DNA from: Imbricaverruca yamaguchii | Taxonomy: Eukaryota > Arthropoda > Thecostraca > Neoverrucidae | Reading direction: 5' to 3' | DNA length: 64,000 nucleotides | Assembly: GCA_034440575.1 (NCBI GenBank) | Contig: JAOTOL010001552.1 | Span: forward strand, 484,501 to 548,500 | Shown here: piece by piece, positions 1,861 to 26,000 of the stretch | Layout of the letters: the number at the start of each line of letters is the position of its first letter | Numbering within the stretch: the stretch's first letter is position 1 | Notes under the pieces: model-generated | What the model was told of the DNA's origin: nothing | The model's input: the letters and a program-made list of their open reading frames with translations, nothing else | Database searches by the model: none | Program-made: the position numbers and the translations under genes

Positions 1861-4800
1861 CTGTGGAACCGGAGAGTGTCGGAGCTTACCGTCTGTGGGA
1901 GGAATCGGACCTTGCTGTCTGTAGGAGGGAGCCGGATCTCGCCGTCTGTGGGGGCGGGGGTGGGAGAAGGATCCCATCGTCAATGGGAGGGAGAGTTTGA
2001 CCTCACTGTTTGTGGGAGGGGAGTCAGACCTCACCGTCTGTAGGAGAGTTTGGCCTCACGGTCTGTGGGAGGTGAGTCAGACTTCATCTTCTGTGGGAGG
2101 GGAGTCAGACCTCACGGCCTGTAGGAGGGAGATTCGGACCGAAGAGTAACTAAATATAATAACTGAAATTTAATAAACGTTACCGACCGACTTTACCGTT
2201 TGTGGGAGGAGTCGAATTCACGGTATGTAGGACGGATAATTTGACCTCACCGTCTGTGGGAGGGGCGTCAGACCTAACCGTCTGTGGGAGGGGCGTCAGA
2301 CCTCACCGTCTGTAGGAGTTGGACCTAACCGTCTGTGGGATGAGTTGGACCTAACCGTCTTTAGCAGGGGAGTCAGACCTAACCGTCTGCGGGAGGAGTC
2401 AGACCTAACCCTATGTGGGAGGGGTGTCCGACCTAACCTTCTGTGGAAGGTACGTCAGACATAATCGTCTGTGGGAGGAAAGTTTGACCTATTCATCTGT
2501 GGGAAGAGAGTCAGACCTAAGCGTCTGTGGGAGGGGAACCAGACCTAACCGTCTGTGGGAGAAGTCGGACCTCATTGTCTATAGGAGGGTTTGACCCCAC
2601 CGTTTGTGGGAGGGGAGTCAGACCTAACCGTTTGTGAGAGTAGGACCTCATCGTCCGCAGGAGGGTTTGACCCCACCGTTTGTGGGAGGAGAGCCAGACC
2701 TAAGTGCCTGTGGGAGGAGTTGGATGTCACGGTCTGCATGAGGGAGAGTTCGACCTGACTGTCTGTGGGAGGGGATGGGTGGTGGTCTGTCACGTGAAAA
2801 CTTCTGCCAGTGTGTAACCTTGAAGGTTTAGAGGACAGGCTCGAATCACTCAGCACACATGACGTCGACGTAGGAGTCACTGGGCCAATTTTAAAGCTAT
2901 TTTTTATATCGCACAATTTTTAACTCGACAGCCACAATTCCAGTGCCACTGGAAGCGTGAGGACAGCAGACGGCAAAGGAGCAGCTGTCACCAATTTTGG
3001 AAGAAAAAAAATGACAGCCAATTGACACCGCTTTTCGAGTCCTTGTACACAGCGAGAGCGCACATCATCTGCGGCACCACCAGCTCAGATAAGATCTGGC
3101 AATGCCCTGCTCAGCGTTACCCGGTGTCTGGCAACCCACACGGTACAATTGGAACGCTTCATACGCTATTGCACCATGTTCCAACTGAATATCGACAGCA
3201 ATTTATCTGCCAGAGTAAGATTTCCTACCGAGATTAGCACCATCCACCCTCGCCGCCACTTGATGTTGCCCTGTGTGATAGGACTGAAACACCTTCACAC
3301 TTAAGTCCTGATTTCTGGAACATGCTTAAGTTGTCGCTCCACACAGACGCAGAGTAGCAATGTAAATGCGCTGGATCATCCTAAATCGCTGCCCAAGTGT
3401 CGCTATGCGACAGAAATCATGCTAACACGAGCATTCCAAATGAATGTAAAATGCGGCGCCAAAATTGGTATGAAGGGTAGTGAAATGCATATCGGCAGAC
3501 AGGAAATAAGCTGTCCTGCCTGTTATAGGTTTTTTCAGCAATGTTTGTTTATCGTGATTACTGAAGCAAAAACTTGACTGCTTGAGCATAAGATATCGCC
3601 GAGTATTGCAAACAAACCCAAAGTCTCGCGCCACAGTTAACATTTTTTTAATGCATTTTTTTTAAATTAGATCCGAGTTGTTGCTGGTGTGGTTTTAGGA
3701 ACCAAGATTCTATTGCTAAGCAGAGCTTGTTGCGTGAACCCTGGCCCACCATCCATGAAGTCCAGTTCAACGGCAGAATTTTGATCGAAAGTTTAAAGTG
3801 CCGTCAATGCACCGATACGACCACCCGGTAGCTCGTCCCCGGCCTTATCGGGCCAGCTGCCAACTAACATTCCCGGCCGGGGGCTAAACGCGAGCGCGCG
3901 AAGCGACTGGAACCCTGTGTTCCCATGACAGGGGAGACTAGTGCAGGCCAGCGCTCTAACCAACTGAGCTACCTGTACCACTATTTACTCTGTAAATAGT
4001 GAAATGCACATCAGCGGACGGGTATCGAACTTGCCAATCTCTCCACAGCGTGGGCTTTTACAAACGGGGCTATGTGTAGATTGCATATGGTCTGGTCGGT
4101 TGTATTCCATGTTAATTGAAGGAGTAAGGGTCTTTAACATCAGTGATTGATTGCCGCGCGGAAAATTTCCAAAGTTGCTATGGAACCAAACTGGTAAGAG
4201 GCAGTGGCATATACTATTCCATTACGGGATGGACTTTTCAAAAGACGTTTAATTTTTATTTTTCCCAGGAATTTACAGACTAACGTTTAGTTCTCCTTGC
4301 TGGCCACACCACGGCGCTGGTAGTCAATGCACGGGCTTGTCTCATAACGTGCTTGTCACCATTTCGTGGCGTTGCTGCCTTCCAACAGTTAGCTGCCTAT
4401 TGGCAGCGGACTTACCGTCAAAGTGAAAAGCCGATAGCAGACCCTTTTGTCTTTTAATGTGCATGACCTTGGAGGACGTGACTTGTGGGAAGTCGAGCTC
4501 CACGTAACTGCTGAAGCGCACGCCACCACTCTTCAGACGCCAGTAGAGTGTATCGAAGCCAGCCCCTACGGACAAAACCTGCCACCGGGAGCAGCAGAAG
4601 CGCTCGTCACATCAGCACCGAATCCAACCATTGCCAAATCCTGAGTAAGAAATACGGCTTTCATAGGCACTGGTCGCTGCCGTCTCATTTCATGTAAGCG
4701 CTGGCGTACACTGGGTGAGACGTAATTGGTCTGAGTGAAGTTGGATTGGTTTGTGCGATAAATAGGTGGTACGAGGCAGGTATAACGGAACACCTGGGGT

Positions 4801-5727
4801 GTCCGGCAAACGCCTCACCTGTGAGCACCACATATTGGTTTGCTGGTTCAGGAACTGCGATTTGTGGCTGGCTGTCTACAATACTGGGTACCTGAATTGG
4901 TGGGTGGGATATCTTTTGGGGATCCTAGTCATAATTAGCGTAGTGATATATGCCCTTCCACAGTTATGGGTTAGCAGTGCACCAAAATGTGTAAACGTGG
5001 GTAGAAAATCAATCCCAACCTGGAATAATCTTCCACCACCCATCCAAGCAATGTGATCTATAATTTCCCACTTCCGTATTTGAATTATCTTGCACACAAA
5101 ATAGGCATTACACCAAAAACGTTCAGCAGTCAGAAAGCGGCATTCAATGTTATCGCTACCACCATTGAGTTCAAGGTAAACTAAATATTGGCTTCAAACG
5201 TGTTGCTCTGAAATCCTGTATTGCACTTCCTTCCTACCTCAATTTTTCACCTTCATACAACCAGTTCAAAAATGTTTTTCTCCCCGAACATCCAAGTCCA
5301 AAATGAATTTGTGACAAGGTATGTCAAATTGCATATGATGCAGTTTCATTGAACTCTAGGTGAAATAGTTTTCAGACAAAAAAATGTTTGAAAACATTCC
5401 GAAATCAAACTCCTAACAGGTCCTCGTGATGATGATTACTGTCTTTTACGACACATCGACCGTTGAGTCATGTAGCGTCACCAATCTCTCACACCGATTG
5501 GTCGCGGGCGAAGAGTAGCGACAGCCTAACAGGTCCTCCTAACCGTACCATAGAGTACCATAGACAGGTCACTGTAAACTTAATGTCGCATAAATCACAA
5601 AATAAGCAACAAATCATTTAAGGATCGGAATGATTCAGCTGTTTTCCTTTGCTCCCGTTCTACTTATCGCTTCCTGTCTCATTTTTTTCTGTCTATCTGT
5701 CTGTCTGTCTGTCTCCCTCCCTCCCCT

Positions 5728-5758
<31 letters not shown>

Positions 5759-6225
5759 GCACACTGTTTTCCTCTCTCTTTCTTTTTGATTTCCGGATAC
5801 ATCGGGTTATGATCAGATCAACATGTCAATCAGCCACGTTTCATTCAATCTCTGGCCAGCATGAAGTAACTGCAACTTGGAGGACGTCAAACTCCACCAA
5901 GAACCCCGAGCCCACAAACAATCCAAGTGCCCATCAATGACTGGAAGCCCACCAATCACACCAGGGCCCACTAGGAGCCCAAGAGCCCACCAGCGAGACG
6001 TGAGCGCACCTGGGAGTCGGCGCCGCAGCGCGACACGAACGCCTCCACCAGGCGGCGCACGGCCAGCGTGCGCGCGTAGTAGCCGCGGTGGATCTCGGGT
6101 GCCTTGCGCTCGAAGCGGCGCACGAAGAACGGCAGGAACGGGTCGTCCCAGTAGCCATGCGCCACGGCGCTGCGCTTGCAAGCGCTGGCGTCGTCGTTGG
6201 TGAGCATGACGCCCTCCTGGCCCAT
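1619..6225 (-). CDS. LCMT1: Leucine carboxyl methyltransferase 1, 5' part (three exons; runs off the left edge)
   Basis: LCMT1 is a cytosolic SAM-dependent enzyme that methylates the C-terminal leucine carboxylate of the PP2A catalytic subunit and so steers assembly of PP2A holoenzymes. Three exons join in frame: 6010-6225, 4416-4578 and 1619-1860, together 621 nt or 207 residues. Family landmarks in order are the ASACKRSAVAHGYWDDPF block, RKAPEIHRGYYAR, the SAM-binding VLSVGAGFDTLYWRLK, YVELDFPQVTSSK, the LVLAECVLVYM strand and FVNYEM. All match the family order known from human LCMT1 (334 residues), so roughly the last 125 residues should lie left of base 1. The first ATG is uncertain because the reading frame stays open upstream into a 21-bp repeat. 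The gene lies in the same direction as RSF1, about 3.9 kb away. Identification comes from remembered family motifs, not from a search. Confidence 0.95.
1861..2790. repeat. 28-bp minisatellite made of LCMT1 exon 3 acceptor copies
   Basis: About 33 units of 23-28 bp, plus-strand consensus GACCTAACCGTCTGTGGGAG plus a variable tail. On the gene strand each unit reads CTCCCACAG|ACGGTTAGGTC, the same as the real exon 3 acceptor and the first bases of the exon (ttccacag|ACGGCGAGGTC). The array begins exactly at the real junction and is broken by an AT-rich patch around 2140-2200. Confidence 0.92.
3648..3981 (-). mobile_element. tRNA-derived SINE, family A, copy 1
   Basis: On the minus strand a tRNA-like head with box A (TAGCTCAGTTGGTTAGAGCG) and box B (GGTTCCAGTCGC) is followed by a conserved body (GCTGGCCCGATAAGGCCGGG) and a tail ending in an A-rich run after ACTCGGATCTAATTT. 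It lies in an LCMT1 intron. The same head, body and tail occur at 13915-14262 and 54034-54335. Confidence 0.88.
4416..4578 (-). CDS. LCMT1: LCMT1 exon with SAM-binding motif
   Basis: Acceptor ggcag|GTTTTG joins directly to the preceding exon to give SQ|VLSVGAGFDT, the SAM motif I of the family. It continues with LYWRLK and YVELDFPQVTSSK and ends at a consensus donor G|GTAAGT, phase 1, after FHFD. Length is 163 nt. Confidence 0.93.
4766..5260 (+). other. Possible retroelement remnant in LCMT1 intron 1
   Basis: A plus-strand stretch around 4990-5055 reads IPTWNNLPPPIQAM, which resembles the WNxLP motif near the C terminus of LINE-encoded proteins. No other domain is visible, so this is weak. 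The rest of the stretch shows nothing I recognise. Confidence 0.25.
5451..5526 (-). mobile_element. SINE family B body fragment
   Basis: CGACACATCGACCGTTGAGT through GGGCGAAGAGTAGCGACAG matches the body of the full copy at 32508-32657 nearly base for base. The tRNA-like head is missing. Confidence 0.8.
5695..5765. repeat. (CTGT)n / poly-C / (TC)n microsatellite
   Basis: Simple repeat of CTGT units running into CCCTCC, a C run and TC dinucleotides, in LCMT1 intron 1. Exact length is assembly-sensitive. Confidence 0.9.
5880..6009. repeat. Degenerate about 20-bp repeat next to the LCMT1 exon 1 donor
   Basis: Reading the gene strand from the donor, GGTGGGC-type words recur every 17-25 bp (CTGGTGGGCTC, TAGTGGGCCC, TTGGTGGGCTT and so on). 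It is weak but fits the pattern of tandem growth at splice junctions seen elsewhere in this window. Confidence 0.45.
6010..6225 (-). CDS. LCMT1: LCMT1 first recognised coding exon
   Basis: Encodes the N-terminal family block with ASACKRSAVAHGYWDDPF and RKAPEIHRGYYAR. It ends at a donor reading CAG|GTGCGC, phase 0. I start it at the ATG at 6225 (MGQEGVML), where the conserved part begins. The frame continues upstream to an ATG at 6315, but that stretch encodes a 7-residue repeat from a 21-bp tandem repeat, so translation there is doubtful. An untranslated first exon further upstream is possible. Confidence 0.88.
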
Positions 6226-6249
6226 GGTGATCCGGCTGGCCGACGCCAG

Positions 6250-6465
6250 GGTGGCACCACTGTTGGTCTTCACAGCACTGCTGATGGCCTCAACAATACT
6301 GCTGATGGCCTCCACAGCACTGTTGGTGGCCTACACAGCACTGCTGATGACCTCTTTAATGCTGCTGATGGCCTCCGCAGCACTGCTGATGGCCTTCACA
6401 GCACTGTTGATGGTCCACACAGCACTGCCAATGGTTTACACAACACTGCTGGTACCACTGATACT
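6250..6465. repeat. 21-bp tandem repeat at the LCMT1 5' end
   Basis: About nine units of CAGCACTGCTGATGGCCTTCA, period exactly 21, so frames stay open as 7-residue repeats on both strands. It lies directly upstream of the first recognised LCMT1 exon and makes the true start hard to place. Confidence 0.92.
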
Positions 6466-6499
6466 ACTACACAGCTGACCAAGTTTACTGCCATCCCCT

Positions 6500-7860
6500 C
6501 TTCTTAGCACTTCATCTGAAAGAAATGCAACCATCAAGTAGCTAGTTATTTTGGCATTGGAGCAAGATGGTGATGAATGTTTTGAATGATTCTGGCTTTC
6601 TGGTTAGGTTAGGTTAGACTAGATTACATTATACTATAATACATTTTTATATATTATGCTACATTACCTTAGACTATGTCAGGTTAGGGTATATATGCTT
6701 TATTTAGTATTCATTTATTCATATATATACATATATATACTTTTTAAACTCTTGATTATAAGCAGAACACCCAGTGAATGTCAGTAGAAAAACCAGATAT
6801 GGCTACATGCAAGATACACCATGTATCAGTATAAATTTAGCTTTGATTTGTAGTGGTTGCATTCCAGTATCCCACATAATTATTAAGCTTTCTTTTCGGA
6901 AAAATCATGCAGGTTTATAATTTTCCAACAACACAGTGTCATTCCTATGGAGGTTAATTGCTCAAATTGTTCGAAGGTATGCCTGTATTTGTTTTCAAGG
7001 AATTCCACAGCCACAAAATTTATAAGCTCCTTCTTGCAGCATCAAAGCTTCATAAGCCACAGTTTAATATGGTGCAGGTCATACACCAAAAAGGTACAAA
7101 TAAAGGAGCCACATCCTGGATGAGCACATTATGGTCGGTAAATGTTTGCACTATTAACTTATAAAACACTGTTAATGTCACAGCACATTTCCTCTGTATC
7201 ATGCCTGATGTCATCAATTATATTGTCTGCCTTTGACATAAAAGAAATCATTTGCAGAGAAAATGAATGTTTTCATCATCTTAACCACATCAAAAGCATT
7301 ATTACAAAATTCCAAAGAAATAAATTTTAGCTTGCTATCCAAATTTACAGGTTAGGTTTGATCAGGATCTATATCTTCAAAATGTTTTAGAATAAAACAA
7401 AGTTTTATATTTTTTAATAATTTGCTTTCTTGCATTGAAGGTTAGGCAAGGCTATGCTACATTATGTTACATACTTTTTCTTGATTTTAAACATTACTTT
7501 TTATGCTATAATATCGAACACCAAGGCCCTTTCAGTATTATTTTGTATCCAAACTGAAGGGTGCATTTGCAGGGAAATAAATTGTCCCATCAATGTCCAG
7601 CACATTCATTAACGTTGCATTAGGAAAACAATTCAAGAAAGCACAAATTACCTTAAAATACAAACCTGCCGCAGCCTTTTTCTATGCCACTGCTTTTGGA
7701 AAATCGCAAAAATGAATAGAGTACGCCACATTTGTCTCAGTTCATAGCTGCCAAATTTGCTTTCCGTGAAAATCCCCTGGTACCAAAAAAAAGGATTCTC
7801 ACGCAGTTCGAAATAGCGGAGTGAAAAGAGAGCTGGAGGTTTTTTGTGCTTTAATTATGT
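6500..7860. other. AT-rich, CpG-poor intergenic DNA
   Basis: No gene is recognised. Short TTAGG-like runs occur near 6600-6630. A motif around 7600-7660 (CATTCATTAACGTTGCATTA, then AAATTACCTT) resembles stretches at 22455-22505 and 38435-38495, so part of this is an unnamed dispersed repeat. Confidence 0.5.
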
Positions 7861-7879
7861 CTTAGGTGCATTTTTGTAT

Positions 7880-8930
7880 TGATTCGATGTGCAAGATTGT
7901 TTGTGCGGACTGCAAAGCCAATAAATGAAGGTCCCTGAGCCAACCGGGAAGCGCCCTGAGGTAACGGAAGGGTCACCTGAACTGATAGAGCCCTAAACAC
8001 CGCAGATTCCTGATCGTCGGAAAGCGTCCCGAGCCAACATGACGCGTACCTGAGCCGACGGAGGGACCCAGGCCAATATGAGGGGCTCTGGACTGACGGA
8101 GGGGTTTCGGATCGTTGAAGGGCTCTTGGCCTGATGGAGAGGGCCCCGACTAGTAAAGAGGGCCACTGAGTCAACGAAGAGAGATCATGGACAGACGGAA
8201 AGGGTTCATGGTCATCAGAGGACCCAGGGCCATTGGAGTAGGTCCAGACAGGCATGAAGGGGTCTGAACTGGAGGAAGGTCCTCGGATCATTGTTAAAGC
8301 CATCGGCGCGACGGAGATGACTACACCATGTAGAGGGGTCCGGAGCGGTCAAGGGGCCCATGCGAGTCAAGGGAGGCCCACTTTACCATGGAAATTTTTT
8401 AATGTTTGCGCCCTCTTCGGGAAATTTTGAACTTGAATCCTTGAACCTGGGAGCCCTCTGGCTGCTAGGAATCCTCTCCGTCGGCTGTGATCATCCGAGT
8501 CGGCCCAATGGCCCCCTCCATCCGCTCAGTGGACCTTCTTACTGGTTGAGCCTTCGCCGTCAGTCCGAGGATCCATTCACTACCTTGGCCCATTCCCTCG
8601 GCCTAGAGGCTCTTTAAATTGGCCCGGACCGGGGCCCTAGGAACTCTGTCCGTGGGATCTATCATCCCTCCTGTAGTTTCAGTGCTCTCTTCATCATCCA
8701 CCGGCACCATCTCCACCGGCCGGGTGCACCTTTCATCAGCCCAGTGGGCCTTCACATCGGTGCAGCGGCCATTCACGGGGGACTTGCCTTTCAACTGTCG
8801 GCACAGAGCCCTTTCCGGTCGCCTGAATACCCCTAGAGCGACACATTCATCGGATGATTCGTCACGGCCTATGCCAAAACACGTGCTCAACGGCCACTTT
8901 AGCCATGGAGTGGCCATGTTAAGCAGGGGC
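7880..8930. repeat. Two degenerate minisatellites in inverted orientation
   Basis: 7880-8390 holds imperfect units with words such as GGACTGACGGAGGGG and GGCCACTGAG. 8440-8930 holds the reverse complement of the same family (CCGTCAGTCCGAGG, CCGCTCAGTGG). The two arrays face each other around 8390-8440, in the gap between RSF1 and LCMT1. No gene is seen. Confidence 0.7.
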
Positions 8931-10113
8931 GTGCGAGCATCCCGGAACCATTCTACAAGTTTTTCGGTACAATGCCGACGGGGTCGACGTTCGTAGTGAT
9001 GTTCCCAGACCCAGCATTAGCTGGGTGCGGCTGACCCCACCAACATTCACAAGCTTTACCAGAACAAACTGATTAGTGAAGCCAGTGATAGTAACACGTG
9101 TATATATATATATGCATATTGCGTACACTGAAGACAGCTGGATCGCTAGAAGAGAAGCCCAGTGTATTATGGGATGCAGGGATGATTGGTGATTGCAAAT
9201 GTCAATTGTCAATTACAAATAAAGGCCTGAAGGTATTGACGGCAGGACCAGCTCTACAGCATCTCCCAAGTATCCATATAGTTTTTCCTTCCCGTACGTC
9301 CCCAAGGGGAGTACTGTCCAGGCAGCAGTCGGCCGCAGTCGGCCGCTGGCCGAGGCTCAGGCCGTACGCACGGAGCACAAAATAAGAGTCAAAACTGAAA
9401 TGTGAGAACCGGGGAAAATGCTATCTTCCGGGGGCGGAGATGCGAAGTAACGGAGACTGAATTCTGAATGAAAATGCACGGATCTCGCGACGGAGACCTG
9501 CACTACTTGAAATTCGCACGCCGAGTGATTGATGTTAGGTACCACACATAATTTCGGCCGCGGAAGAGACATGTTGTGCAGAGCATGGTTAGAAGCGCAT
9601 GTATTTCACTTCAGTCTTATTCTCTATGGATTGTACAAAACATGAAGACGCATCAGCTACAGCTACGTCTAAATATTAACGACGCACTGTTACAAAAGTA
9701 AAACAGATACCCTCGAAGTCGACTAATGCACATCTCCTAGAGGCGGAAGTTACCAAGCCTTGCAAGGGCTCCGTTAAGATGACATTCTGTTCGCCAGAAA
9801 AAGCTGCTGCATATAGTTCAATACGGCAAACGCGAAGGGAAATAAATATTCTCTGGCTTCCCTTCACGGCGGCCACGCACAATCCCGCATTCGCCCCGCT
9901 CGAAGCCGGCGGCCAGCGATCATTTCAGCGGGCAAATCGAGCAATGAGTTGCGACAATGACGCCATGACGTAAAATCGCGGTCAGCCGCCACCGGCCGGC
10001 TCCGAACAGGGCCGATAACCAACAGTGGACAGAGGAGAGAACAACAGGTAACGATGAGAGTGGTGCATGAGTGGGGGTGATGATTATGGGCGGCTGCAGC
10101 GGCGGCGGCGGCA
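8931..10113. other. Region downstream of RSF1, including its 3' UTR
   Basis: No further coding exon is recognised. The RSF1 3' UTR must begin at 10113 and run leftward. I did not find a clear AATAAA on the gene strand close to the stop; AATAAG near 9616 is a weak candidate. A short (TA)n run lies near 9100-9115. Confidence 0.4.
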
Positions 10114-11036
10114 TCAGTCGTTCTGCGCCTGGCTCGTGAAATACGAAACCAGACCGCCGAACTCGCGAGTGCCGTCCGCCTCGCTGGTGTCCGGCGGCAG
10201 CTGCTGCGGCTGGGCGGGCCGCTGCTGCGGGTACTGCGGCGGCGGCGGAGGCAGCGGCGGCCCGTACCGCATGGCATACATGGGCGGCGACGAGCGCCAC
10301 GGCTGGTGCGGGCTGGGCGCCGGTCCGCCTGGCATGGTGGCTGGCGGCCGTAGCGCCGGGTGGTACGGCTGTCCCGGATAGAACGGCGGCGGCGGTGGCG
10401 GCCGGCCAGCCGCGCCGTACGGGTGCGGCAGCCGACCGGCGGTGCTGCTCGGCAGGCCCGGGTGCGGGTGGAACGACTGGCCGGGCACCGGCACGGGCCC
10501 GGACACGGGCACAGGCGCGGCGGCGACCGCCGCTGGCGGCGGTGCGCCCGGGTAGCGCGCCGGCGGCCGCACCAGCATGTGGCCGCCGGCCATCGATACG
10601 GGCAAGCCGCGGCCGGCCGGCGGCGGCGGCGGTGGTGGCGGCCGCAGCGGTGTCAGGCCCTGCAGGCTCACCGGCGGCGGCGACGCCGGGCTGGGCGACC
10701 GCTGCAACGCCTGTAGCAGCCGGTTGGGCGGCGGCGGCCCGGCCGGCAACGACTCGCCGGCCGGCGCCGCCTCGGGCTCCCGCTCGAGCATGGGCTCGGG
10801 CTGGGGCACGGGCTGCAGCTGCGGCGCGGCCGCCGCCTCGGCCGGAGCGGGCGCCAGCTCGATCGCCGCCTCCTCAGGCGAAGGCTCGACTGGAGACGGC
10901 GCGGGAGCGGCGGCAGGCTCGGCCACCGGCTCCGGCGAAGGCGACAGCGGCTTCTTGTCCTTCCTCTGTGGGATCTTGTTCATGTCTTCGTCGCTGTCGC
11001 CTTCCTCGTCTTCAGCCGCATCTTCCATTTCTTTCT
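10114..11036 (-). CDS. RSF1: RSF1 exon 15 (terminal, Pro/Ala-rich)
   Basis: Acceptor acccacag|AG completes Glu and gives KEMEDAAEDEEGDSDEDMNK and KDKKPLSPSPEP, followed by about 240 residues rich in Pro, Ala and Gly (YPGAPPPAAV, PPPPPFYPGQPYHP) and the terminus FGGLVSYFTSQAQND with a stop at 10114-10116. The proline-rich tail is not something I know from vertebrate RSF1. The DNA is very GC-rich and both strands stay open. Confidence 0.88.
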
Positions 11037-14000
11037 CTGTGGGTGCGGCCGTAAGGTCGGTTTTACGTTCGGTCTCACAGCGGCCGCCAATGTTGGCAGG
11101 CGAACACTCACGAGCACCACTTGCCAACAAAATAACGTCAAGCAATCCAACAAAAGCTTCCAAAATAGCATGAAATAATTACCGATCGCATGTAGTGTCA
11201 ACATTCATACTGTGGCACCCACTTACCCATGGGCTCGTCCGACTCGCTCTTCTCGTCGGCCGGCGGCTTAAACTCGTCGCTCTCGTCTGAGCTGCGTTTG
11301 AATTTACGCCCGAAGCTCATCGGTTCGATCGGCCGCAACTGAAAAGATCACACGTTATCAGCCCTAACTCAGCACAGCCACAACCGGGATTCCTATCTAT
11401 GCCTCTGGTATCTCTTCATGAGGTCTGGGGAAATAGTGACGGTCAAAAGCCCAGATCAGCACCCAAACGCCGATTCACCAAGCACAGTTAGTTATTAGAG
11501 CTTTAGGGCGCATCGATTCACCAAGCCCTATTCAAACAGCTTAGTACATGGTTAGTAATGACTGGCCATGCGGCAAACTCCATCGCGAACACGTATCTTT
11601 CGATGTCAGCATTACCGATCGAATCGATCCACAGACGTCGACGAAACATAATCTGACCACAATCAAAATGAAAAGTTGGTGTACCACTGTCTGGTGCACC
11701 AATGGGCAGTGTAGTTTGCACTCAAGCCACGGTAGATGGGGAGGGGGCACACTTTCGAGATCCACCATGACTTTTCGCATCAGCCCTCCTGCCGAAACAA
11801 TGAAGCCACGTTTGCTATTATTCGCCCAGCTAAAACTACATCTGCATTGTGTTGTGATCAGCCGATACATAAACATACCTAGGATAATTCATTTACAAGC
11901 GGCCACAACTGAAACGCATTACCGAGAATCCAGTAATAGCCGCCCAAATTCAGATGCAGGATCAAGTCCAGTCACAGCAGCCCACAACTGATGGGCGCTG
12001 GATGACCGACGCCGTCGATGCGCCCATAAACCCAAATAGCCAACCAACCAGCTCACAACTAACGCCAGAAGCCCAGTCACAATTCCCAATAACTGACACA
12101 CCAGAAGCCCAGTCACATTTTTTTTCTCTCCTTTTTAGCAGAGGCAGAATGCCATCTGCTAAAGATGTATTACGTTGAAGAAAGGGTTACGTTAATCCGG
12201 CTTATGTGGCATCCGTTAATTTTATTATATCAAATAAGCAAGAGAGGAAAGATGAGCCCAGTTCCTAACAATCGACACAACGCCGGCAGTGCGGCCAGTC
12301 GCCCACAGCTGTCCGCCCGAACCTGCTCACCGTATCACTGTCCGACTCGGACTCCAGGATGGCCGCGTAGTTGGCTATCTTGCCGCGCGTGCGGCGCGCC
12401 AGCGGCTCCACCTCGGGTTCCGGGTCGGCGCGCTGCACGCGCCGGCGCGGCTTGGCCGCCGGCGGGTCGCCGGAAGTGACGCGCTTCTTCGGTCGCGACT
12501 TGCCGCCGCTCTTCTTGCGGGATTTGGCTGGCGGTCGTCGGCCGGCAGACCGCACCGGCGCCTTCCTCCTGTGAGAGGAGGGCAGCGGTGAGGGAACAGA
12601 TTTCGAGATCGGGCGACGTTTTCGGGGAGAGAGAGTGAGAGAGAGTGAGTGAGTGAGAGAGTGAGTGAGAGAGTGAGATAGTGAGATAGTGAGTGAGTGA
12701 GAGAGAGAGTGAGTGAGTGAGTGAGTGAGTGAGTGAGTGAGTGAGTGAGAGAGTGAGTGAGAGTGAGTGAGAGTGAGTGAGAGTGAGTGAGTGAGTGAAT
12801 GAGTGAATGAGTGAATGCGTGAGTGAGTGAGTGAGCGAGTGAGATAGTGAGTGAGTAAGATAGTGAGAGAGTGAGTGAGAGTGAGTGAGAGTGAGAGAGA
12901 GAGAGAGAGAGTGAGAGTGAGAGAAATATATAGTGAGAGAGTGAGAGTGAGAGAGAGCGAGAGTGAGAGAGTGAGATAGAGAGTGAGAGTGAGAGAGAGT
13001 GATATAGAGAGAGTGAGAGAGTGAGATAGTGAGTGAGAGAGAGAGAGTGAGATGGTGAATGAGTGAGAGAGTGAGTGAGTGAGTGAGTGAGTGAGAGTGA
13101 GAGAGAGTGAGAGTGAGAGTGAGTGATAGTGAGAGTGAGAGAGAGAGGAGAGAGAGAGGAGAGAGAGAGGAGAGGAGAGAGTGAGAATGAGAGATAAAGG
13201 GAATGAGATAGACACATAGATAAATAGAGATGAGGGAGGGAGGAAGAGAGAAAGGGAGAGAGAACAAAAAAGAGAGGAGAGGAGAGAGGAGAGAGGGGAG
13301 AGGGGAGAGAGCACGACTGCCGAGAGCGAGGGAATAGAAGAACGAGGAGAGGAGCAGTGCAGAAAACAAGCATTTGAACTTCAGACACAGCACAGCGCTT
13401 ACACAGCACTAACAGCGTCACGTACTTTTTCTTCTTGCGTCCCCAGGTTCCGTCCGACTCGTCAGAGTCGTCGCCGGATACCACGAAATCTCGCATTGGC
13501 GGCGGTCGCCTCCTGCCGCCCCATTCCTCGTCACTGCTATCGTCCGACACGTATCGCTGCCGGCGTCTGCAACCAATGATAGAGATAAGGGCTTTTGCTA
13601 GCGTTCGTACCCCGCACCAAAGGTCACACCTCGAACACGACCCGCTGTTACGTAGCTGTAGTCCGTGCCAGGGGTCACAGCCAGCCACGGACCGACACCG
13701 ACGTATGCAACCATGCCAGAGATCACAGGTCAAATACGGACCCCTGCCGGCATCGGTAACGGTGTCAGAGGTCAAACGCACGGACCGTTGTCGGCGTCTG
13801 TAACCCGTGTCAAGTATCACAGTCACACATGGATCGCCCCCAACGTCTGTAATCTCATCAGAGGTCACAGGTTAGACAAGGATCGCTCCATCCCGTTGGT
13901 AGATCGCAGGTCTATTTCTTCTTCTTTTTTAAATAAATTTAATCCGAGTTCTTGTTGTGCTGGCTTTAGGAACTAGGGTCCTATTGCTAAGCAGAGCTTG

Positions 14001-17000
14001 TTGCGTGACCCCCGGCCCCACCACCCGATCTATGAATTCCAGTTCAACGGCAGAATTTAGACCGAAAGTTTAGCGTGCCGTCCATGCACTGACACGGCCG
14101 CCCGGTAGCTCGTCCCCGGCCTTATCGGGCCAGCTGCCAACTGACACTTCCGGCCGGGGGCTAAATGCGAGCGCGCGAAGCGGCTCGAACCCTGTATTGC
14201 CAGGACAGGGGAGATCAGTGCAGGCCAGCGCTCTAACCAACAGAGCTACCGGGGCGGCACGTGACACGCTGGTGGCAGCGACAGGACGAGTTATGACGCG
14301 TTGGTGGTCTCCGTGGATATAGAGTGTGCTTCAACTGGCGAAACACAATATCTATAACTGGTGAATTGGAAAACATCTCAGCATGTTCACGATCGAAGCG
14401 GAAAAAAATACTACAGAAGGTCTAACAACAAACGCGTCGGAATCAGGGTAGATGAAAGCCAATAAAAGACAAAGTGAATGGCAATTCAAATAAATTCATC
14501 GAATTCCAAATAATACAGGAGCAAACGCACCAAACGCCAAGTTGAAAAGGGCATGAAACAAAAAGCATACAGGTCTAGGAGCGAAACGGGTAGAGCAAGT
14601 CGATAATCTTATTACCTAATACCTGACTGGGACCCGGTTGATACCCTGCCCTCTCATCGTGACCCGGCTGACACATACAACTCTCATCGTGACCCGGCTG
14701 GCGCAAATCCCTCTCCCCGTGACCTGATCGACACCCCCTCATTGACCACGACTCAACCGGCACCCCTTCCCTGAGCATGATTCGATCAGCACCCCCTCCC
14801 CTTACCACCGCGGCCCATTTGACACCCTTCCCCTTAGCGGCTCAGCCAACGCCCTCCTCCCTCACCGTGACACGGCCAACACCCTCCCATCTCACCGTGA
14901 CCCAGCCAACACCTGCGCCTCCCACCGTAATCCGGCCATCGTCTTTCCTCTCACCGTGACTGAACCAACACCCTCCCTTCTCATCGTGATCCGACCAACA
15001 CCCTCCCTCCCACCGTAACCCGACCAACACACTCCCCTTTCATCGTGACACGACCAACACCCTCCCCTCTCATCGTGACCCGACCAACACCCTCCCCTCT
15101 TACCGTGACTCGACCAACACCCACCCCTCTTATCGTGACCCGACCAACACTCTCCCTTCCACCGTAGCCCGACCAACACCCTCCCCTCTTACCGTGACCC
15201 GACCAACACCCTCCCCTCTCATCGTGACCCGACCAACACTCTCCCTTCCACCGTAGCCCGACCAACACACTCCCCTTTCATCGTGACACGACCAACACCC
15301 TCCCCTCTCATCGTGACCCGACCAACACCCTCCCCTCTTACCGTGACTCGACCAACACCCACCCCTCTTATCGTGACCCGACCAACACTCTCCCTTCCAC
15401 CGTGACCCGACCAACACACTCCCCTCTCATCGTGACCCGACCAACACTATCTCCTCTCGTTTATTGATTGGTTATTTGGGCTTCGTGGCACCTTAACTGC
15501 TACTGGTTATGCAGCACCCATCACCTTGGCCTCTCACCGTGATCCGGTCAAAACCAGCGCCTCTCACCGTGATCCGACCAACACCCTGGCCTCTCACTGT
15601 GACCCAGTCAGCACCCGCGCCTCTCACCGTGCCCGTGTGGAGCGGCGAGTCGGCTCGCCAGTGGCCTTGCGCCGTCGACGGCGAGTATCCAGCTCGCTGT
15701 CGTCCGACTGCTCGTCCGGATTAAATTCGTCATCCTCCTCGTCCTCGCTGGTCGCCTTGAAGTTGGCGTCCGCCTGGAGGCAGGACTAATGTCAGGCCCG
15801 ACCACAGCGAGTGGCCGCTGATCGCATACGAGTTGTGATGATCACAAAAACAATTCAGTTGACTTACTTCACATGGTGCTGTTGTGCAATTAGAAGCTCC
15901 GCGCACATAGCACATTGGGGATTCTGGTAGAGCTTCTTACTTCCTAGGTTGGTTATTGGGGTCCGTTATGTCCCAAGTGTGTCGACTGCATTGGTTACTC
16001 TGGTTGCTGTTACTGGAGTTTAAGGGCGCATCGCGTTGGTTACCCCAGCCCATCTCCTTTTTAGGTCAGGCTCTTCATGATATGTGCATTGTATGATATA
16101 TATTATTACTAGAACAGGTTATTGGAGGACATATTGGAACATAACTGGCGACTACATGTATGCCCACCATCGGCAGGCCACACACACATACAAACACGCA
16201 CCACGTCGTCATCGTCGGAGCCCTCGTCGTCCAGGTCGTTGATGCGCCGCTTGCGCCGCTTGGCCGGCGGCGGCGGCGCCACGGCGCTGCTGTCCGAGTC
16301 GGCCGCGTCGGCCGCGTCGGCCGGCAGCTCGCTCGGCTCGGCGTCGCCGTCGGCGCTCGGCTGGCCGTCGCCCGCGGCCGTCGGCTCGGCGTCGCTCCCA
16401 GCGGCCGCCGGCGACCGCTGCGCCTCGGCGATGGTCTCCATCGACTTGCCGCGGCCGGCGTTGCCGGCGCCGCGCACCAGGTCCAGCTCGTCCTGCCGCC
16501 CAGCGTCAGCACATCATGGGTGTACAGGGGCGGCTATGCTCGGGCATGTTACGGTACGGTTCTACGATTCTAGCAAGGGATAGAATATCCGGCTCGATTG
16601 TGGACTGACGGCGTTTGCCTCCCGTCTGGTCATCCCCAGGTGTATTAGATCCCACTTATATTTGCAATATCGCTTGGGGGGGGGGGGGTGGATAGATCCC
16701 GCATTTGTTTTTGGAAGAATACGTATGTCCTCAAAATCACAACAAAAACGTATCGTTTCTGTAGCTTGCGTAAAATTTGGTGATTTGACTGGGGTGACAC
16801 TTGCTCTACCCCTGGATTTCCCACTTGCTGCTAGAGCCCGAAGAATGTATGGCTGGCATGAACGCGTTGCTGAGCAAACGTTGAGATATTTTAACGTAAA
16901 CATGCGATCTGCAGACCGCATCGCATGCAGACCGATCTGCAGATCGCATCGCATGCAGAGCGATCTGCTGACGTCAGGATGCAGGTATAGGCACACCTGA

Positions 17001-20000
17001 AGAGCCATATATGCGTGTGCCTAGTAAACATCATATTACGTTAGCTCAACATAAAACAGCTGTCAAACAATGCGATGTGCCATTTCAAACACTGCGATCG
17101 GCCCAGCGACAGAGGACCATTGTAAAAAAACCAAACGGCGGTAACACAAAACACAAGGCCAACCGTAACTCAAAACAAACTCATGCGCTCAACACACTCA
17201 TATGACCACTGCATTGGGACAGCGGGATGGGGAGATGGGCTGAACCTCACTGCGGCCGACTAACCCGAATAGCGTCGTCGATCATCTCGTCGAACTGTTT
17301 GACCTTCTCGCTAATCTCGGCGGCCGGCCGCCGCGCGCGCAGCGTGTAGATGGGCTCGTCCGACTCGGCCGACACCTCCGACTCGGACTCGGCCGACTCG
17401 TCATCGCCGGACGAGCCGTCCGACGAGCTGCTGCCGCCGTCCCCGCCTACCGACGCGTCCGAGTCCTTGTCGTCCTGCCATCGAGACAACAGCAACCAAG
17501 TTAGAACACAGCCAGGATTATAACGGAACCCAAATCTCAGTAGTCAAGGATATTTTGATCTTGGAATTGTGCAGGACGAAGTGAAATTTCTGGCATCTAG
17601 CCATGTAAGTAGGCAAGCGTCTTGTAATGCAGGGACCCAGCCACGACGTTTTCATTTCACGGATGGCAATCAGAGTTAGGGTTGAATACCGTAAGCGAAT
17701 TGGTTGCGTCGCACCAAGCACCAATTTTCACTATGCTTCCAGATATTTTTCGGACATAGTTCTCGCTCACTTCATATTTTTTTTCGCGTTCAGTTTTCAT
17801 GTGTGGCAATTTTTCACGTTGGCCTAACATCACTGCACATGGACCAGAGGGGCTGAAAATTGACTACATTACTACCAAGTTCAAAACCATCCATGCACTT
17901 ACATGTGCCACTTTGGCACAATTACTATTGGAAACATTTGAAAGCCACGATGAATCCCCTAATACGTTAAGTAAATAGTAGCAAAATTAGACATGTTACC
18001 CAAAGGATAATATCTCGAACGTGTTGTGTCATCATGACAAAAGACATAGTATCTGTGTAATACAATATACCATAGTAACAGTGGACTATGAACAATTGGT
18101 TGGTATGTCCTGTAGCAGGTTAGTGGCCAATTTGGCTGGGGGGGCACGCAGTAATACAGCCGACCAATGGTTCGTGACGAGCATAGAGATTAGACGTTAG
18201 CGCACCGGAGACACTGCAGGGCCGTTCCATTTCGCAACAGGGCCAAAGCATAACCAGCCGCCGCCCGGAGCAGAACCAAATCACCTATGAACTCACTTCT
18301 ATTAATAGATGGAAAATGGCGTAACACACGACCACAACAGAACTTAAGATAATCAATTGTGAACGATTCCGTGAAGTTTGGCCTCACCTAAGCTACGTAT
18401 CCTGAGATAACACACGCATGAACCCTGTATAACCAAGGCAGTTGATGCGCCCACAAACCCTAATAAGTAACTAAATAACCTGATAAACTGAATAACCGCC
18501 CTGACCGACCACGAGACAACGATCTACAGTGGGGAATGGTAAACCGTTCGTGATTCAGGGTGGAATATGCTACCCTCTGAACATTGAATATACATTCTTC
18601 CAAAATATGAATAAACTTGGTGCTTCTGTATGTGTTTATGAAGTCTTCATAGCTTGTTTTAAACAGCGGTATAGTAATAATCACCATTGCGGATTGTTTC
18701 ACACAAAAGCATCTTGCAGCACAAATAAAGAGGGATTACCTATGATGTGGCCTGTTATGCCATGCTGTTTTTTTTTTCCCCAAAAGATTTTAAAAAAATT
18801 TTTTTTAAAAAAGAAAAGGGGGTTGGGGGGTACCTAAAAAAAACAAAAAAATTTTTTTTTTAAATTTTTTTTTATTTAAAAAAAAAATTTTAAAAAAAAA
18901 AAAAAAATTTTTTTAAAAAAAATTTTTTCTAAATTTTTTATACATAAATAAAAAATTCCCAAATTATTTAAAAAAAAAAAAAAAAAAATTTTTAAAAAAA
19001 AAAGTGGGTCCCCGGTCATGCCTTCCTACCCAGGGACCGGTGAAGCCGGTCGAGCGGCCATGCCGCGGCACGCAGCCTCGCCACCCAACGGCCTGGCGGA
19101 GGCACACCAGCAGCAGGAGGCGGCCACTACAGTCAGACAGTCAGACAGCCGGTACACCAGCGGCAGGAGGCGGCCACTACAGTCAGACAGTCAGACAGCC
19201 GGTACACCAGCAGCAGGAGGCGGCCACTACAGTCAGACAGTCAGACAGCCGGTACACCAGCAGCAGGAGGCGGCCACTACAGTCAGACAGCCGGCACACC
19301 AGCAGCAGGAGGCGGCCACTACAGTCAGACAGTCAGACAGCCGGTACACCAGCGGCGTGAGGCGGCCGGCACGTCAACGGTCGCCACCCAGCTCTCTCTT
19401 GTTGTTTCAGGCGAGCCGAGTTCGCGCTGCAGCTCGTAAACAGAACGCCCGCAGCCGCCACTGGGACACCAGACATTGGATGTCCGTCTGGCGGTCGGCT
19501 CTGTTGTACGCAGTGAACACTCAGCTCGACTCACCGGGTCGGAGGTGCGGCCGGTCCGCTTGGGACGTCGCGGCGGCAGCACGTTGCCCATGCTGATGTT
19601 GACGTACTCAAGCCGCTGTTTCCGCAGGAGGTCGTTCTCGCGCTGCTTCAGCGTCACGTCGAACTCGTCCAGTCGTAAAGTTAGCGCAGCTATCAGCCGG
19701 GCCTGCCGGGTCACGGCACAGACTGTTAGTCAGTGGCAGGCAAGAGACCTGCAGGGTTACAGCACAGACTGTTAGTTAGTGGCAGGCCAGAGACTTGCAA
19801 GGTCACGACACAGACTGTTAGTCGGCGTCAGGCCAGGGACATGCAGGGCCATGGTACAGGCTGTCAGTTAGGTCAGTGACCTACCGGGTCACAGCACAGG
19901 TTATCCAGGTTATTTTTGCTATCCAGAGCAAGATACTATTAATAGCTAAACTTCTTCTTTTATCACCTAAAGGCTGAAGGATGCTATACCACAGCAATAA

Positions 20001-23000
20001 CCAAACACATACATTCCATTAAAGATTCCGATTATAGAAATCCACGGATATGTTGATCTTTATCCCGCGATTTTCACATTCTAACTCAGCCTACACACAC
20101 CAGAAAGGACGTTCGTCACAGGTTAAATAGATAATTTGTTTTCGATGACAAATATAAAATGGCAATATATTACGTAGTACAGCAATTGTACACCCCAGCT
20201 GTTACAATCTGTCGAAAAGCATGCTCCAGCATCTTGGAGTGCAAATAAAAAATATAACTCCACCCGGGGCCCAATATCGATCGTTAATCGGGTTCCACCA
20301 CGGAATATTAGACGGCAAAGCAGAACTAATTCCAAATCGGAGATCAGATGGCTTTGCCGAGCCCAACACGATGCTCGGCTGGGCTCACCGGGTGCCAATA
20401 AATGCAGACATCCACGTCCGACCAACACGATCGGTCACCATCAGGTCATGCACAGACGACAGCCTGTGTCATTCACACTGCGGCCTCTGTGGTATGTCAT
20501 CACCAGACTCAGGGGAGCTGGCGTATCGACGACTGCTCTAGTTGCCTACTATATACGGAGCATACTGAAAGGAACAGGTGGAAACGAGAGATGTCGATCC
20601 CCCACCCACCAACCCTCGCCAATCGAGAGGAAGGGGTGGTGCGGAATGCCACCACCAATCCATCCATTCGCCGTCGCACAATAGCGCGGTGGCACGCCGC
20701 AGTTTGTAACGATTAACGACATATCATAGGGGTATCCTCTGGTGATTTAGTGACGTCATGCCAAACATCTAACTTTGATATCCTTTTCGAGGAACGTTTA
20801 GCGCGTTTTTGGAGCTCTACTTTCCATATTCTAGTTCAGTTAATATGATCAACGGACTGGTCTTGTATGTCTACACATTTGACTCATGTCATCTATTTGG
20901 CGCAGGGTTAAAATAACGGTTTTTTCGTTGGATGTGAGATGTCGAAGCGAGCACGGTAGGATGTTGAAATTTGTCATGGAATTAGTGTCATTTAAAATGC
21001 TTTTGATGCCCCAGACTCAAATTCGAGCTGATGGTGTAGGTTCCAAGGAGCAGGATGTCGATTGAGCGTTCAGAAAGTAGTATATCCACCCTATTTCACA
21101 AATAATTTATCACTGCTTTGGCGACCTTTCCAGGGCCGATGCCAAACCATTCAGGTCGATTAATCTGAGAGCACATTTAACTGATGTGCGATTGATGTAG
21201 TATGTAACTGATGTTTTCAGAAGCAGTCACGTGCTTACCTTATGCGCCGCTACATATGGACGGATGACTAGTAGTGATACCACCATTAAGCTCAACGATA
21301 CAGAGAACTTGTCCGCTGACACCGACGAAAAAGTATGCTAGTCGCGGCACTCCCAGCAAAGCTGGAAAATAAACTAAGATTTTGAAGCAAAGCCTAAGAG
21401 TTGGTATTGTGCTATCGTGGTAGTCAGCGTAGTGTTAACCGAGAGGCAAACACAATGCATGCTGAAATGTAGTTATGACCAGCGTTGGAAAAGTGGCCCT
21501 TTTTTGGAACTTTTGCCATCCAAAGAATTATACACTCCAGAAAAAAAAAATACACTCCTTGCATTGCTGGACGAATACATGCTTAACTAGCAAGACAGTT
21601 AGATGTCATTATACAATAGTGATAACTTGGGTGGAGAGGAAGATTCAGTCATACTGGGTCCCCTACCACTTTAATGCCACTTAACATTCCATATTTCATA
21701 ACATTCCATCTTCCATATCATTCCATAACATTCCATTTGTGCATGTGTGATTTCTGGTGAAGTGCAGGTTAATTAATAAACAGCCATAAATGCATTCATG
21801 TGTATGTTCTCCATTTGTGAACAAACCTCAGAAGAGTCCAGATGTGCCCAGAAGAATGTATGGATGAACACCAAGAGCTAGAGTGGCATCCACACAACTG
21901 TTAAGCCACAAAGTGTAGCACTTCCCCCAAATCCCCAAAATACTGGTGGATATGAGCCATGTTTTGCCACAGGATAGGAATCTTCATGGGATCTACTACT
22001 TTTCCACACATGTTTTACACACATTTTACGTCCATGAAGCATACAAAGGTTTTTGTGGGTTTGGCTATGGCTAAGCCAAAGGGTTTGGCTAAGTTATGCT
22101 AGATGAGTTTTTTTGTTGTTGTAAGTTAGCCATTTATCAAATTCCTTTGGGGATCATTCAGGATTATAAAGTTTCTTATAAAAAAAAACACTCAGGCTAG
22201 CATAGGCTGTTTGGTTAGAATAGGCCATTTACTTTTAAATTATTAAAGGAAAAATTACTTAGAAAATTTCCATTAAAAATGTCTTTCTTGCATCCAGTTA
22301 GGCTGCAGCTTTTTTCTTCATTTTTAACATTACATTTCATGGCATATTTCCAAACCGAACCAGAGTCACTTTTTTGGTGTCATTTTGTTACCCAACTGCA
22401 CTTGCCAAAAAAATGTGTGGTAACATCATATAGGTACCTACATTATGAATACATTCATAATCATTGCACAAAAAATAAATTTCAAGAAATCAAATCACCT
22501 TAAACTGCAAATTTGTTCATTCAGAAAGTCAGAGACCAGAAATGTTAAAAGTATAATGGTATTCAATGGAGAATGGCGACAGGATGCACCTAACAATTCC
22601 CTGAACATTTCATGAATGCACAAATAATGCTTGAATGCATGCATATCTATAATATCTCCAGTCAATGTGCACTGAAGACCCCCAGCCCCCATTTTGAAAG
22701 AAAAACATTCACGCTTCAAAATGTGGTAAGTGAAAACAGGATTTTCCAGACAAAAGCAAAGCAATCAGTTTTGTTCATTACTACGCTTGTCGGCAAAACA
22801 TCGCAGCAATTAATATTATCATGTCCTTTTCCTTGTATTATCTGAAGACATGCCGTCACACAACACAAGCTTACAGCTTTGGTTTACCCAAATCAATAAC
22901 TCGAATGACCGCGAAGATATTTGATATAGGTAAGTAGGTAGGTACCAACCACTTACCAGGTAATATACGTATCAGGTATATATTCAGGTAATACCAACTC

Positions 23001-26000
23001 TCTCATACCTCGAGCCAAACACGCAGTCAATTCCATCCGGATAGCAGTGAAGAGCTTTAAAGAAAATCCTTCGTTGAATACAAAAATCACTACGCTCCGA
23101 TAACCAAATATAGGAATTCACCTTTACCAGCCCGACCGCGTAGGAAGGTCCGTTCTTGGATTCAATGAATTCACCGCCCTCCATTTCCCACTCCGGCCGG
23201 AGCTATTGAAACCATTGCCAAGAAAAGCCATGGATAATGCATTTCTTCGAAATGAGAAGCTAATTTCCCCTCGTCCGTGACGATAGTCTGTTTTACAGCC
23301 GCAATTTGCCCGCCTGTCTAGTCGCTTTTCATCCTTCCAAGCATTCCTTGCTTGAACTAAACATTCCAGACATGAACTAAAAAGTGCATCGAAATACATT
23401 TAATATTAATAAGAATTGACTTCAATATCTTTTTTTCAGCTTTCTCATTTGAAAAAAGAAAATTTCGTGGTCGAGAGAAGAAAGGATTTTAGACGGATTG
23501 TTTTAGTATAACCTTCCTTACACCATTATACATTCCGAAACTCATATCCCGAAGTAACATTTTAGACCCTCCCATTTTAGACCCAGCCGGTGCACGAACG
23601 TCCTGCTCTCGAGGTATGCTGTGAATTTGTATTAGTTGTGCGGTGTTGGTATGTCAGGAGTGGCAGGTATTGATATATAAACTTGGTTGACATCGATTAA
23701 GTATACTTTTATGATCATTTTCTCTACCATTGCTCAGGAAGTTGCCTTATAAGTCATTCACGTAACGTGGATGACTTCAGACGACGATGTGTGGTGGACC
23801 CCATCTGGTTGTCTGTAAGACGCCAGGATAGGAACCTAACAAATGACTTGAAGGCGTCTTATTCTTGAAGAAGAATTATCGGGTTATTTCACGACGCATT
23901 CAACCGCAAGGTTGCATAGCGTCGCCAACCTATGACACCGATTAGTCGTGGGTGGACTCTGCAAATGCCGCCGGCCGCGAGATTCGAGTCCCACGCTCCA
24001 CCATCTAAGCAACCGAGGCCTCCGGGTTTTTATTCTTCATTCCAGGAAACATCACTGCATTTTTCAAAATGTATACACTTCGTTATTTATAAAATGTATA
24101 TACTCCGTTACTTGGTGCTTCAATATACACCCCATAATTTTGCAAACTGGGAAATTATACACCTCATAACATAGTGCTTCAAGATTTTACACTCCATGCT
24201 TTAGCAAGCCAAAAAATTATACACTCTGAATCCAAGACCGAGAAGTGAAAATCCAACACTGGTTATGGCTGTATGTTGGCATCACATTCCCTAACTTCCA
24301 GGGCTAATTGGATATCATATTAGCATTTTTAACTTGAAAGACACTCCCTGGTCAAACATGTGAGGTCGATTGGGGTAGTTACATCAGGGTCGAGGAAGCT
24401 AACTGTGAGCTTGTTACTCCGGGACTCCTCAGGGATACTGGATATGGACGAATAGAAAACGTTTTGGATAGCATATATGCAAAAATACTAGGAGAATCAG
24501 CATATTATTTAATTACTATGCAACCTGATGGAATGCCATTTAATTATTATATTTACAATATGCTTAGAGTATATAAGGCAACTCGTTCACAGAGATTTGA
24601 CTCCATAATTTGGGACCCAAGGATGGAGTTGTAAAAAGCCGGTAATCTCCGTTCGAAGCTGGTCCTCAAAATACATTACTTGTCTTGTTCCAAAATGTTG
24701 GGGTTCTCCAAGTATAAATGTTCAGTTAAAGGCTAGTAGCTATGCTATGAATTTGTGGATGAATATTATCGTTTGTGATTTTCCTAGGTCAGTAACTTTA
24801 AAGATGCCGTAATGCTCAACTAGTGGTGAAAAACTTCACGTTGGACAAGCTTTCTTTCAATTACTTCCCTATCTTGGAACATAAAATGACTTATTGATTG
24901 CATTGAAGAAAAAAGCTGCCAAATAAATGCAGAACTCACGCCAAGGTGTTGAATCAAATACCATGCAAACATGACACCACCTAATTGGCTGACATTAGGG
25001 CCAACAGCCCAACTAATGAAGAGTACCGCGGACACCGAGGTACTCTCCCTTAGTGCTTCCTGCTTCAAGTCTCCAAAATCTTAGTGCTTCCTGCTTCGCG
25101 AACACGTACCGAGTCACGAGGCATTCTTGGGCCGGACTGACTGCCATATGCCGTGTTGGATACTCACGTGCTCGCAGGGCGGGCAGTACCAGCCGCCCTC
25201 GGGTATGCTGAGCAGCGGCGGACGGATGCAGTTCGTGTGTCTGCCGCGGTTAGGTCAGGTCAGGTCAGGTCCGGTCAGGTCAGACCAGATAAGGCTAGGC
25301 CGGACTGACTGTCATATGCCGTGTCAGACACTCACGTGCTCGCAGGGCGGGCAGTACCAGCTGCCCTCGGGTATGCTGAGCAGCGGCGGGCGGACACAGT
25401 TGGTGTGCCAGCCGTGGTCGCAGTCGTCGCAGAGCAGAATGTACTCGGGGTGGTCGGCGCGGCCGCACTTGCGGCATAGGTCCTCCTCGTCCATGGGCTC
25501 CTCCGGTGACGCGGGCGCCTCGGCTGCCGCGGCTGTCCAGTACCAGATCACGCCTTTAGACACACGCTGGCCACAGCCCACACGATAAGCACACCGACAG
25601 ACGAAGAACACCGGCAATAAGCATATGCAGGTACGAGCCGAGCAACAACCGGGTTACACGAACATGCGCTTCTTGGTCGCATATTTACGCCCATTTGGAT
25701 TTTTGCGTGCGTTTCAAACCTGAAAATCACCTTGATTCTCCTCGGCACATTATACTGACCAGGACCATCTATCAGATAAGATTGCCCCTGTGGCCAGAAC
25801 CGGATGACATAAGTGCGTTGCCCTGCCTGCACACAATGCATCACCAAACAGCACGCGCCCCGCACCGTCAGTCGCCACCCTGGCCAAGCCATGTTGGTGT
25901 CACCTGCCACAACTGATCTGGGGCTCTATCCTGATTAAGGATGGCTTCATATTTTGTAATTATGGATTGGCAGATAACATTTTCATGATGTCGAACTTGT

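Follow-up and report, generated by a model that had tools for sequence, protein, structure and literature searches.

Why should a minisatellite begin at the very place where an exon ends? The question is raised by a 64,000-nucleotide stretch of the genome of the barnacle Imbricaverruca yamaguchii (hereafter the window: C1319:484501-548500, from a single assembly of 767 Mb), in which two neighbouring genes, LCMT1 and RSF1, both on the minus strand, carry tandem arrays at their exon–intron junctions. The repeated copies contain the splice site and exon sequence adjoining it, donors and acceptors are both affected, and other genes of the genome are affected likewise. We argue that these arrays probably began as tandem duplications spanning an exon–intron junction, and that expansion of the minisatellite kind then carried them into the intron. 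The pattern is real, and the class is already known from lancelets under the name of mirage minisatellites; what we have here is its extension to an arthropod, in several unrelated genes, together with a gathering of array edges at splice junctions on which our controls partly disagree.

Splice junctions copied in LCMT1 and RSF1

The exons of both genes were built by hand from open frames and GT–AG sites, with junctions fixed by frame and homology. The closest matches of the LCMT1 protein are from barnacles (79% identity to Pollicipes pollicipes, 70% to Amphibalanus amphitrite), and RSF1 matches a Pollicipes protein named mucin-1-like. When spliced, LCMT1 exons 1–3 stay open across their junctions and RSF1 exons 4–15 run across theirs, in both cases with no internal stop. 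The join of LCMT1 exons 2 and 3 reads FD/DGEVR (the slash marks the junction), where the Pollicipes protein P0001 has SE/DGEVR and the Amphibalanus protein P0002 is nearly alike, with DE/GEVR; the GEVR at the start of exon 3 is thus common to three barnacles.

Arrays were called blind with Tandem Repeats Finder (TRF) at lenient settings and by alignment of their units. Set against the frame-consistent exons, these calls bear out the arrays that an initial annotation of the window had placed at LCMT1 exon 3 and at RSF1 exons 11, 8 and 12, as well as the partial copy of exon and donor that it had seen at RSF1 exon 7; its weaker cases, at the RSF1 exon 6 and LCMT1 exon 1 donors, were found and are indeed weak (Table 1). 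An array beside the RSF1 exon 4 acceptor was absent from its list. At default settings TRF recovers three of the listed junction arrays and misses the one at exon 12, and 3 of 15 arrays then have an end no more than 20 bp from a junction (P = 0.02).

What do the copies hold? The LCMT1 exon 3 array, with some 33 units, extends 11 bp into the exon. The opening 14-mer of the exon agrees with the consensus of the array at 11 positions, a match equalled by only one of the 6009 14-mers drawn from 13 other exons, and the part of the exon so copied is, to judge from the barnacle proteins, conserved coding sequence. The acceptor AG is kept in 22 of 31 aligned units, and in 14 of the 31 an AG is followed by a GT three bases on. 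Along the array we found no significant gradient of similarity (Spearman P = 0.11). The thought that LCMT1 intron 2 came from the same duplication gets no particular backing from its donor, which scores 11 against the array, a score that another donor equals.

The RSF1 exon 11 array, at the opposite end of its exon and also of about 33 units, runs 8 bp into the exon, whose end matches the unit at 8 of 11 positions with a gap, the best fit among 136 positions of exon 11. Here the donor GT persists in 17 of 32 aligned units; because a 238-bp higher-order repeat occupies 14846-15458, the many losses of GT are probably copies of a few. At RSF1 exon 12 the array that TRF reports (13618-13887) ends 51 bp before the exon, and the junction itself is a diverged copy: the exon start agrees with the unit at 15 of 23 positions, as does just one of 1208 23-mers from seven other RSF1 exons. 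The RSF1 exon 7 case is a two-copy duplication holding the donor and 83 exon bases. Only the RSF1 exon 8 array, which takes in a single exon base, is a main window case without copied exon sequence. Of the seven window hits at score 18, chance or similarity of coding sequence seems to account for those at the exon 9 donor and the exon 10 acceptor, and that at the LCMT1 exon 1 acceptor is uncertain.

The initial annotation had held that the units are unrelated to one another and so do not form one mobile family, and within the stretch searched this stands. When 11 arrays were compared with 284 kb of the window's contig, ten matched nothing but themselves and the remaining one had a single 60-bp match elsewhere. 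The units are therefore private to their loci, and neither a mobile family nor an introner family is seen within those 284 kb.

Table 1. Repeat features at splice junctions of LCMT1 and RSF1, and the exons they adjoin (window coordinates)
Feature	Position	Strand	Basis
28-bp array, LCMT1 exon 3 acceptor and exon start	1850..2775	-	TRF, unit alignment, counts
30-bp array, RSF1 exon 11 donor	14623..15635	-	TRF, unit alignment, counts
46-bp array flush with RSF1 exon 8 acceptor	19702..19899	-	Lenient TRF, unit alignment
~49-bp diverged array including RSF1 exon 12 acceptor copy	13540..13887	-	TRF 13618-13887, sequence layout, exon match
Intronic copy of RSF1 exon 7 end and donor	25130..25250	-	121 bp, 109 identical to 25298-25418
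27-40-bp array, edge 13 bp from RSF1 exon 4 acceptor	30864..31060	-	Lenient TRF
Weak repeats adjoining RSF1 exon 6 donor (26367)	26188..26342	-	Lenient TRF, junction score
Weak 19-bp repeats across LCMT1 exon 1 donor (6009)	5908..6051	-	Lenient TRF, junction score
21-bp array upstream of LCMT1 start codon; 6259 a candidate acceptor	6254..6453	-	TRF
LCMT1 exon 3, acceptor 1860/1861	1619..1860	-	PDB LCMT1 match, barnacle proteins P0001/P0002, frame join
RSF1 exon 11, donor 15627	15628..15773	-	Frame-consistent splice
RSF1 exon 8	19535..19702	-	Frame-consistent splice
RSF1 exon 12	13426..13566	-	Frame-consistent splice
RSF1 exon 7 (PHD finger)	25336..25532	-	Frame-consistent splice

Other genes and the place where arrays end

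The window was picked because the pattern had been seen in it, and the genes that we sampled outside it were not so picked. They lie in about 276 kb of the genome, 5 kb of it masked, and comprise the remainder of LCMT1 together with what we take, from matches to query proteins and to Pfam PF00063, to be a filamin-like gene, a cystathionine gamma-lyase-like (CGL) gene, a YAP-like gene and five myosin loci. Four of these sample genes, LCMT1 among them, are on the window's contig. The myosin loci, chosen for compactness, hold 23 of 72 myosin matches, and these 23 were searched for junctions. Sample junctions were set by homology or profile continuity, by frame and by the splice matrices of the window, those of the filamin-like gene being hand-picked from ranked lists. 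Left out were seven exon pairs with profile or query gaps, one low-scoring myosin intron, the LCMT1 exon 3 donor (which belongs to the window set) and two filamin-like introns with no safe donor or acceptor, one of which sits, by eye, in an array. There remain 38 introns and 75 junctions, which with the 34 of the window make 109.

Copies spanning the junction, at a score of at least 18, were found at 8 of the 75 sample junctions, all eight on the window's contig: filamin-like introns 2, 7, 9, 10, 12 and 16, LCMT1 exon 5 and CGL intron 2, where the exon side scores just 4. Near-identical copies of the acceptor and exon start, 92 bp and 96 bp long, are found at filamin-like introns 7 and 9, and intron 16 has a 22-bp donor array. 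When window and sample are put together, the unit spans the boundary at LCMT1 exons 3 and 5, RSF1 exons 7, 11 and 12 and filamin-like introns 7, 9, 10 and 16. The involvement of both kinds of site that the initial annotation had described for the window thus extends to other genes: donors are copied at RSF1 exons 11 and 7 and filamin-like introns 10 and 16, and acceptors at LCMT1 exons 3 and 5, RSF1 exon 12 and filamin-like introns 2, 7, 9 and 12.

Do arrays end at junctions more often than they should? In the sample, the 9.1 kb of sequence within 60 bp of junctions hold 17 array ends and the 25.7 kb at 60–500 bp hold 13, a 3.7-fold excess of density (P = 0.0004) that is 3.3-fold without the filamin-like gene (10 vs 8, P = 0.011); in the window the excess is 4.0-fold (7 vs 5, P = 0.017). 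Ends that reach 5–60 bp into an exon number only six in the sample and three in the window. If arrays were placed uniformly in introns, 1.9 of 84 would be expected to end no more than 20 bp from a junction; the observed number is 11 (in a set of 69 junctions). With a 100-bp jitter as the control, ends at 20 bp or less give P = 0.0115 in the sample and 0.03 in the window, the jitter controls overall ranging from 0.01 to 0.09 at that distance; at 10 bp or less the jitter control is not significant inside or outside the window.

A side observation concerns the myosins. On C1082, C1138, C1171, C1376 and C1307, several myosin exon matches of about 30–90 residues sit within open frames of 690–1080 residues, which hints at long arrays next to the exons, with periods divisible by three.

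Probable duplication across the junction, and other possible ways to the same edge

How might such arrays be made? In the scheme that we favour, a tandem duplication would cross a junction and be close to neutral, since the copy nearest the exon would go on providing splice site and frame and the extra copies would fall in the intron. More copies would then come by slippage or unequal exchange, and selection would remove any growth into the exon, so that the array would extend outward only and its edge would stay on the junction. The decoy sites strewn along the array, probably by-products, would be ignored in splicing, since exon definition gives preference to the site that adjoins the exon.

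Those decoys are numerous. The LCMT1 array has 13 acceptor-like sites per kb, and donor-like sites run at 17 and 10 per kb in this array and that of exon 11, against 0.8–2.0 per kb in three other intron stretches. By simple matrices trained on LCMT1 and RSF1, the true acceptor is equalled or beaten by 12 of the 55 other AGs of the LCMT1 array, and the true donor by 3 of the 127 other GTs of the RSF1 exon 11 array.

Several things weigh against the pattern or against our scheme for it, and they should be set out together. Decoys that equal the true site by matrix make correct splicing harder to explain, and our belief that the exon-proximal site is the one used comes itself from frame and homology. 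Within the window, 22 of 34 junctions score below 14, the intron arrays at 19101-19392 and 12627-13311 lie away from any junction, and the array at 1322-1602 stops 16 bp from a donor that it does not copy. The myosin loci have a spanning copy at score 18 at none of their 24 junctions, and taken alone their edge excess of 1.9-fold (4 vs 5, P = 0.27) is not significant. And if one counts not where arrays end but what they cover, the result turns around: at score 18, arrays cover 8 of 75 sample junctions against 464 of 1841 intron control points, and in the set of 69 junctions eight are covered where 15.1 would be expected from the same introns and 28.7 from GC-matched controls. In other words, coverage is lower at junctions, and the pile-up of edges depends on the measure chosen. 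Nor is there enrichment in the window, whether for coverage at score 18 (7 of 34 junctions, 198 of 1133 intron points), for overlap at score 14 (12 of 34, 273 of 1133) or for overlap by two or more copies (4 of 34, 174 of 1133), and window coverage by distance from the junction has no peak at the junction itself. Of the two measures, that of edges is the one addressed to arrays that abut junctions, and the deficit of coverage is what one would expect of one-directional growth, since an array will cover a junction only where the duplicated segment crossed it.

It was the initial annotation that proposed a genome-wide tendency of junctions to seed tandem growth, along with the comparison of junctions and random intron positions just described, which we ran on the 276-kb sample. 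Part of this survives, in that the pattern recurs in other genes and edges are denser near junctions; the lower coverage and the myosins speak against the rest. That splice junctions are preferred birthplaces of arrays in this genome, with about 1 in 10 of those sampled bearing copies of itself, is possible, though somewhat less likely than not. If it is true, alternative splice sites, micro-exons and new introns are always on hand in this genome, which also offers a natural experiment on how the spliceosome chooses one site among dozens alike.

Two finer accounts of how edges reach junctions are compatible with duplication across the junction. It may be that ordinary intron minisatellites grow by now and then taking in some of the sequence beside them, and are halted by selection on reaching an exon, the junction being a barrier and not a seed; exon-bounded growth of this kind would likewise pile up ends at junctions. 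We take this quite seriously, at somewhat less than an even chance, given that intron coverage is high and flat up to the exons (26% of control points at 40–80 bp and 27% at 300–600 bp, both at score 18) and that edges lie flush or just short, with no exon copy, at RSF1 exon 8, filamin-like introns 3 and 11 and CGL introns 1 and 6. It sits badly with the exon sequence copied in register, in some cases almost identically, at LCMT1 exon 3, RSF1 exons 7 and 12 and filamin-like introns 7, 9 and 16, which means that the duplicated segment itself included the junction. Or junctions may be true mutational hotspots that seed tandem duplications, through transcription-linked breaks, for example, or the sharp step in GC at exon edges (in window introns GC rises from 0.44 deep inside to 0.59 at the ends). 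The density of array edges does peak within 20–60 bp of junctions, inside the window and out, and 7 of 69 junctions (filamin-like introns 2, 7, 9, 10, 12 and 16 and LCMT1 exon 5) have an exon-side score of at least 9; yet coverage at junctions is below that of intron points, the jitter controls are weak and abutting arrays are roughly as frequent as spanning ones, so we would put hotspots down as possible and not quite probable.

Could the exons have moved and not the arrays, splicing having shifted to a site within an older repeat? RSF1 exon 6 seems some eight residues longer at its 3' end (26368-26400) than in the relative P0242 and has weak donor-like repeats alongside, and this donor has possibly moved to a copy. 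As a general account it is improbable, for the LCMT1 exon 3 sequence that falls within the array codes for residues that are conserved across two further barnacles, and the exon start copied in the filamin-like gene is in keeping with the filamin repeat. An artefact of assembly or annotation we find very hard to believe in. The A/T runs at 18770-19010, in RSF1 intron 8, do resemble poor sequence or an assembly fault; the units of the aligned window arrays, however, are diverged, the tested arrays are private, the junctions are fixed by frame and homology, and most neighbouring junctions are ordinary.

Lancelet relatives and other features of the window

The initial annotation knew of no described class of this kind. 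There is one: the mirage minisatellites of amphioxus are the same thing (PMC3087553, PMC3902484). They are described there from Adh3, the globins BflGb6 and BflGb9, TnC and PGBD5, with repeats at 5' and 3' boundaries, units of 10–160 bp and AG or GT kept in many units but not all, and their copies have been proposed as a source of introns (PMC3087553, PMC3902484). The barnacle arrays are like them in their boundary-spanning units, in affecting donors and acceptors and in keeping AG and GT in part; length polymorphism and somatic instability would be further marks of a mirage. They differ in belonging to another phylum, in coming with 109 sampled junctions and an edge test and in the size of two window arrays, at about 33 units each. 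For amphioxus, reverse-transcription PCR suggested regular splicing despite the mirages (PMC3087553), whereas the barnacle arrays are known from the sequence of one assembly.

Two other systems bear on ours. A tandem duplication that crosses an intron–exon boundary copies splice signals and has been described as a route to intron gain (PMC4974935); splice signals are likewise copied in the barnacle, in arrays of many units and with no new intron seen. In human segmental duplications, minisatellites at boundaries, their units about 30 bp long, may give rise to splice sites or activate them (PMC2812944), and these alter transcripts, whereas the barnacle exons appear unchanged. In the literature that we searched, which takes in few subscription papers, junction arrays are not reported from barnacles or other arthropods, an absence that is not proof. 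The arrays raise two questions: how is the right splice site picked among so many copies, and do copies ever become introns or exons?

Some smaller features of the window may be added. Scans with Rfam and for tRNAs found nothing in it. Open frames at 43322-46871 and 62341-63120 resemble, by eye, pieces of LINE reverse transcriptase. The array at 12627-13311, between RSF1 exons 12 and 13, is a long GA-rich simple repeat, which in the sense of the pre-mRNA is a pyrimidine tract. Between RSF1 exons 7 and 8, 23128-23202 is a possible additional exon outside our model, in phase, bounded by GT and AG and open for 25 codons. RSF1 exon 4, finally, contains a coding minisatellite at 28042-28257 with a 29-residue unit (...GWVSEAVQDPAVTVAGSG...), which occurs about four times in the Pollicipes protein P0223 and about twice in P0242, and is thus a coding repeat common to relatives whose copy number has been changing.

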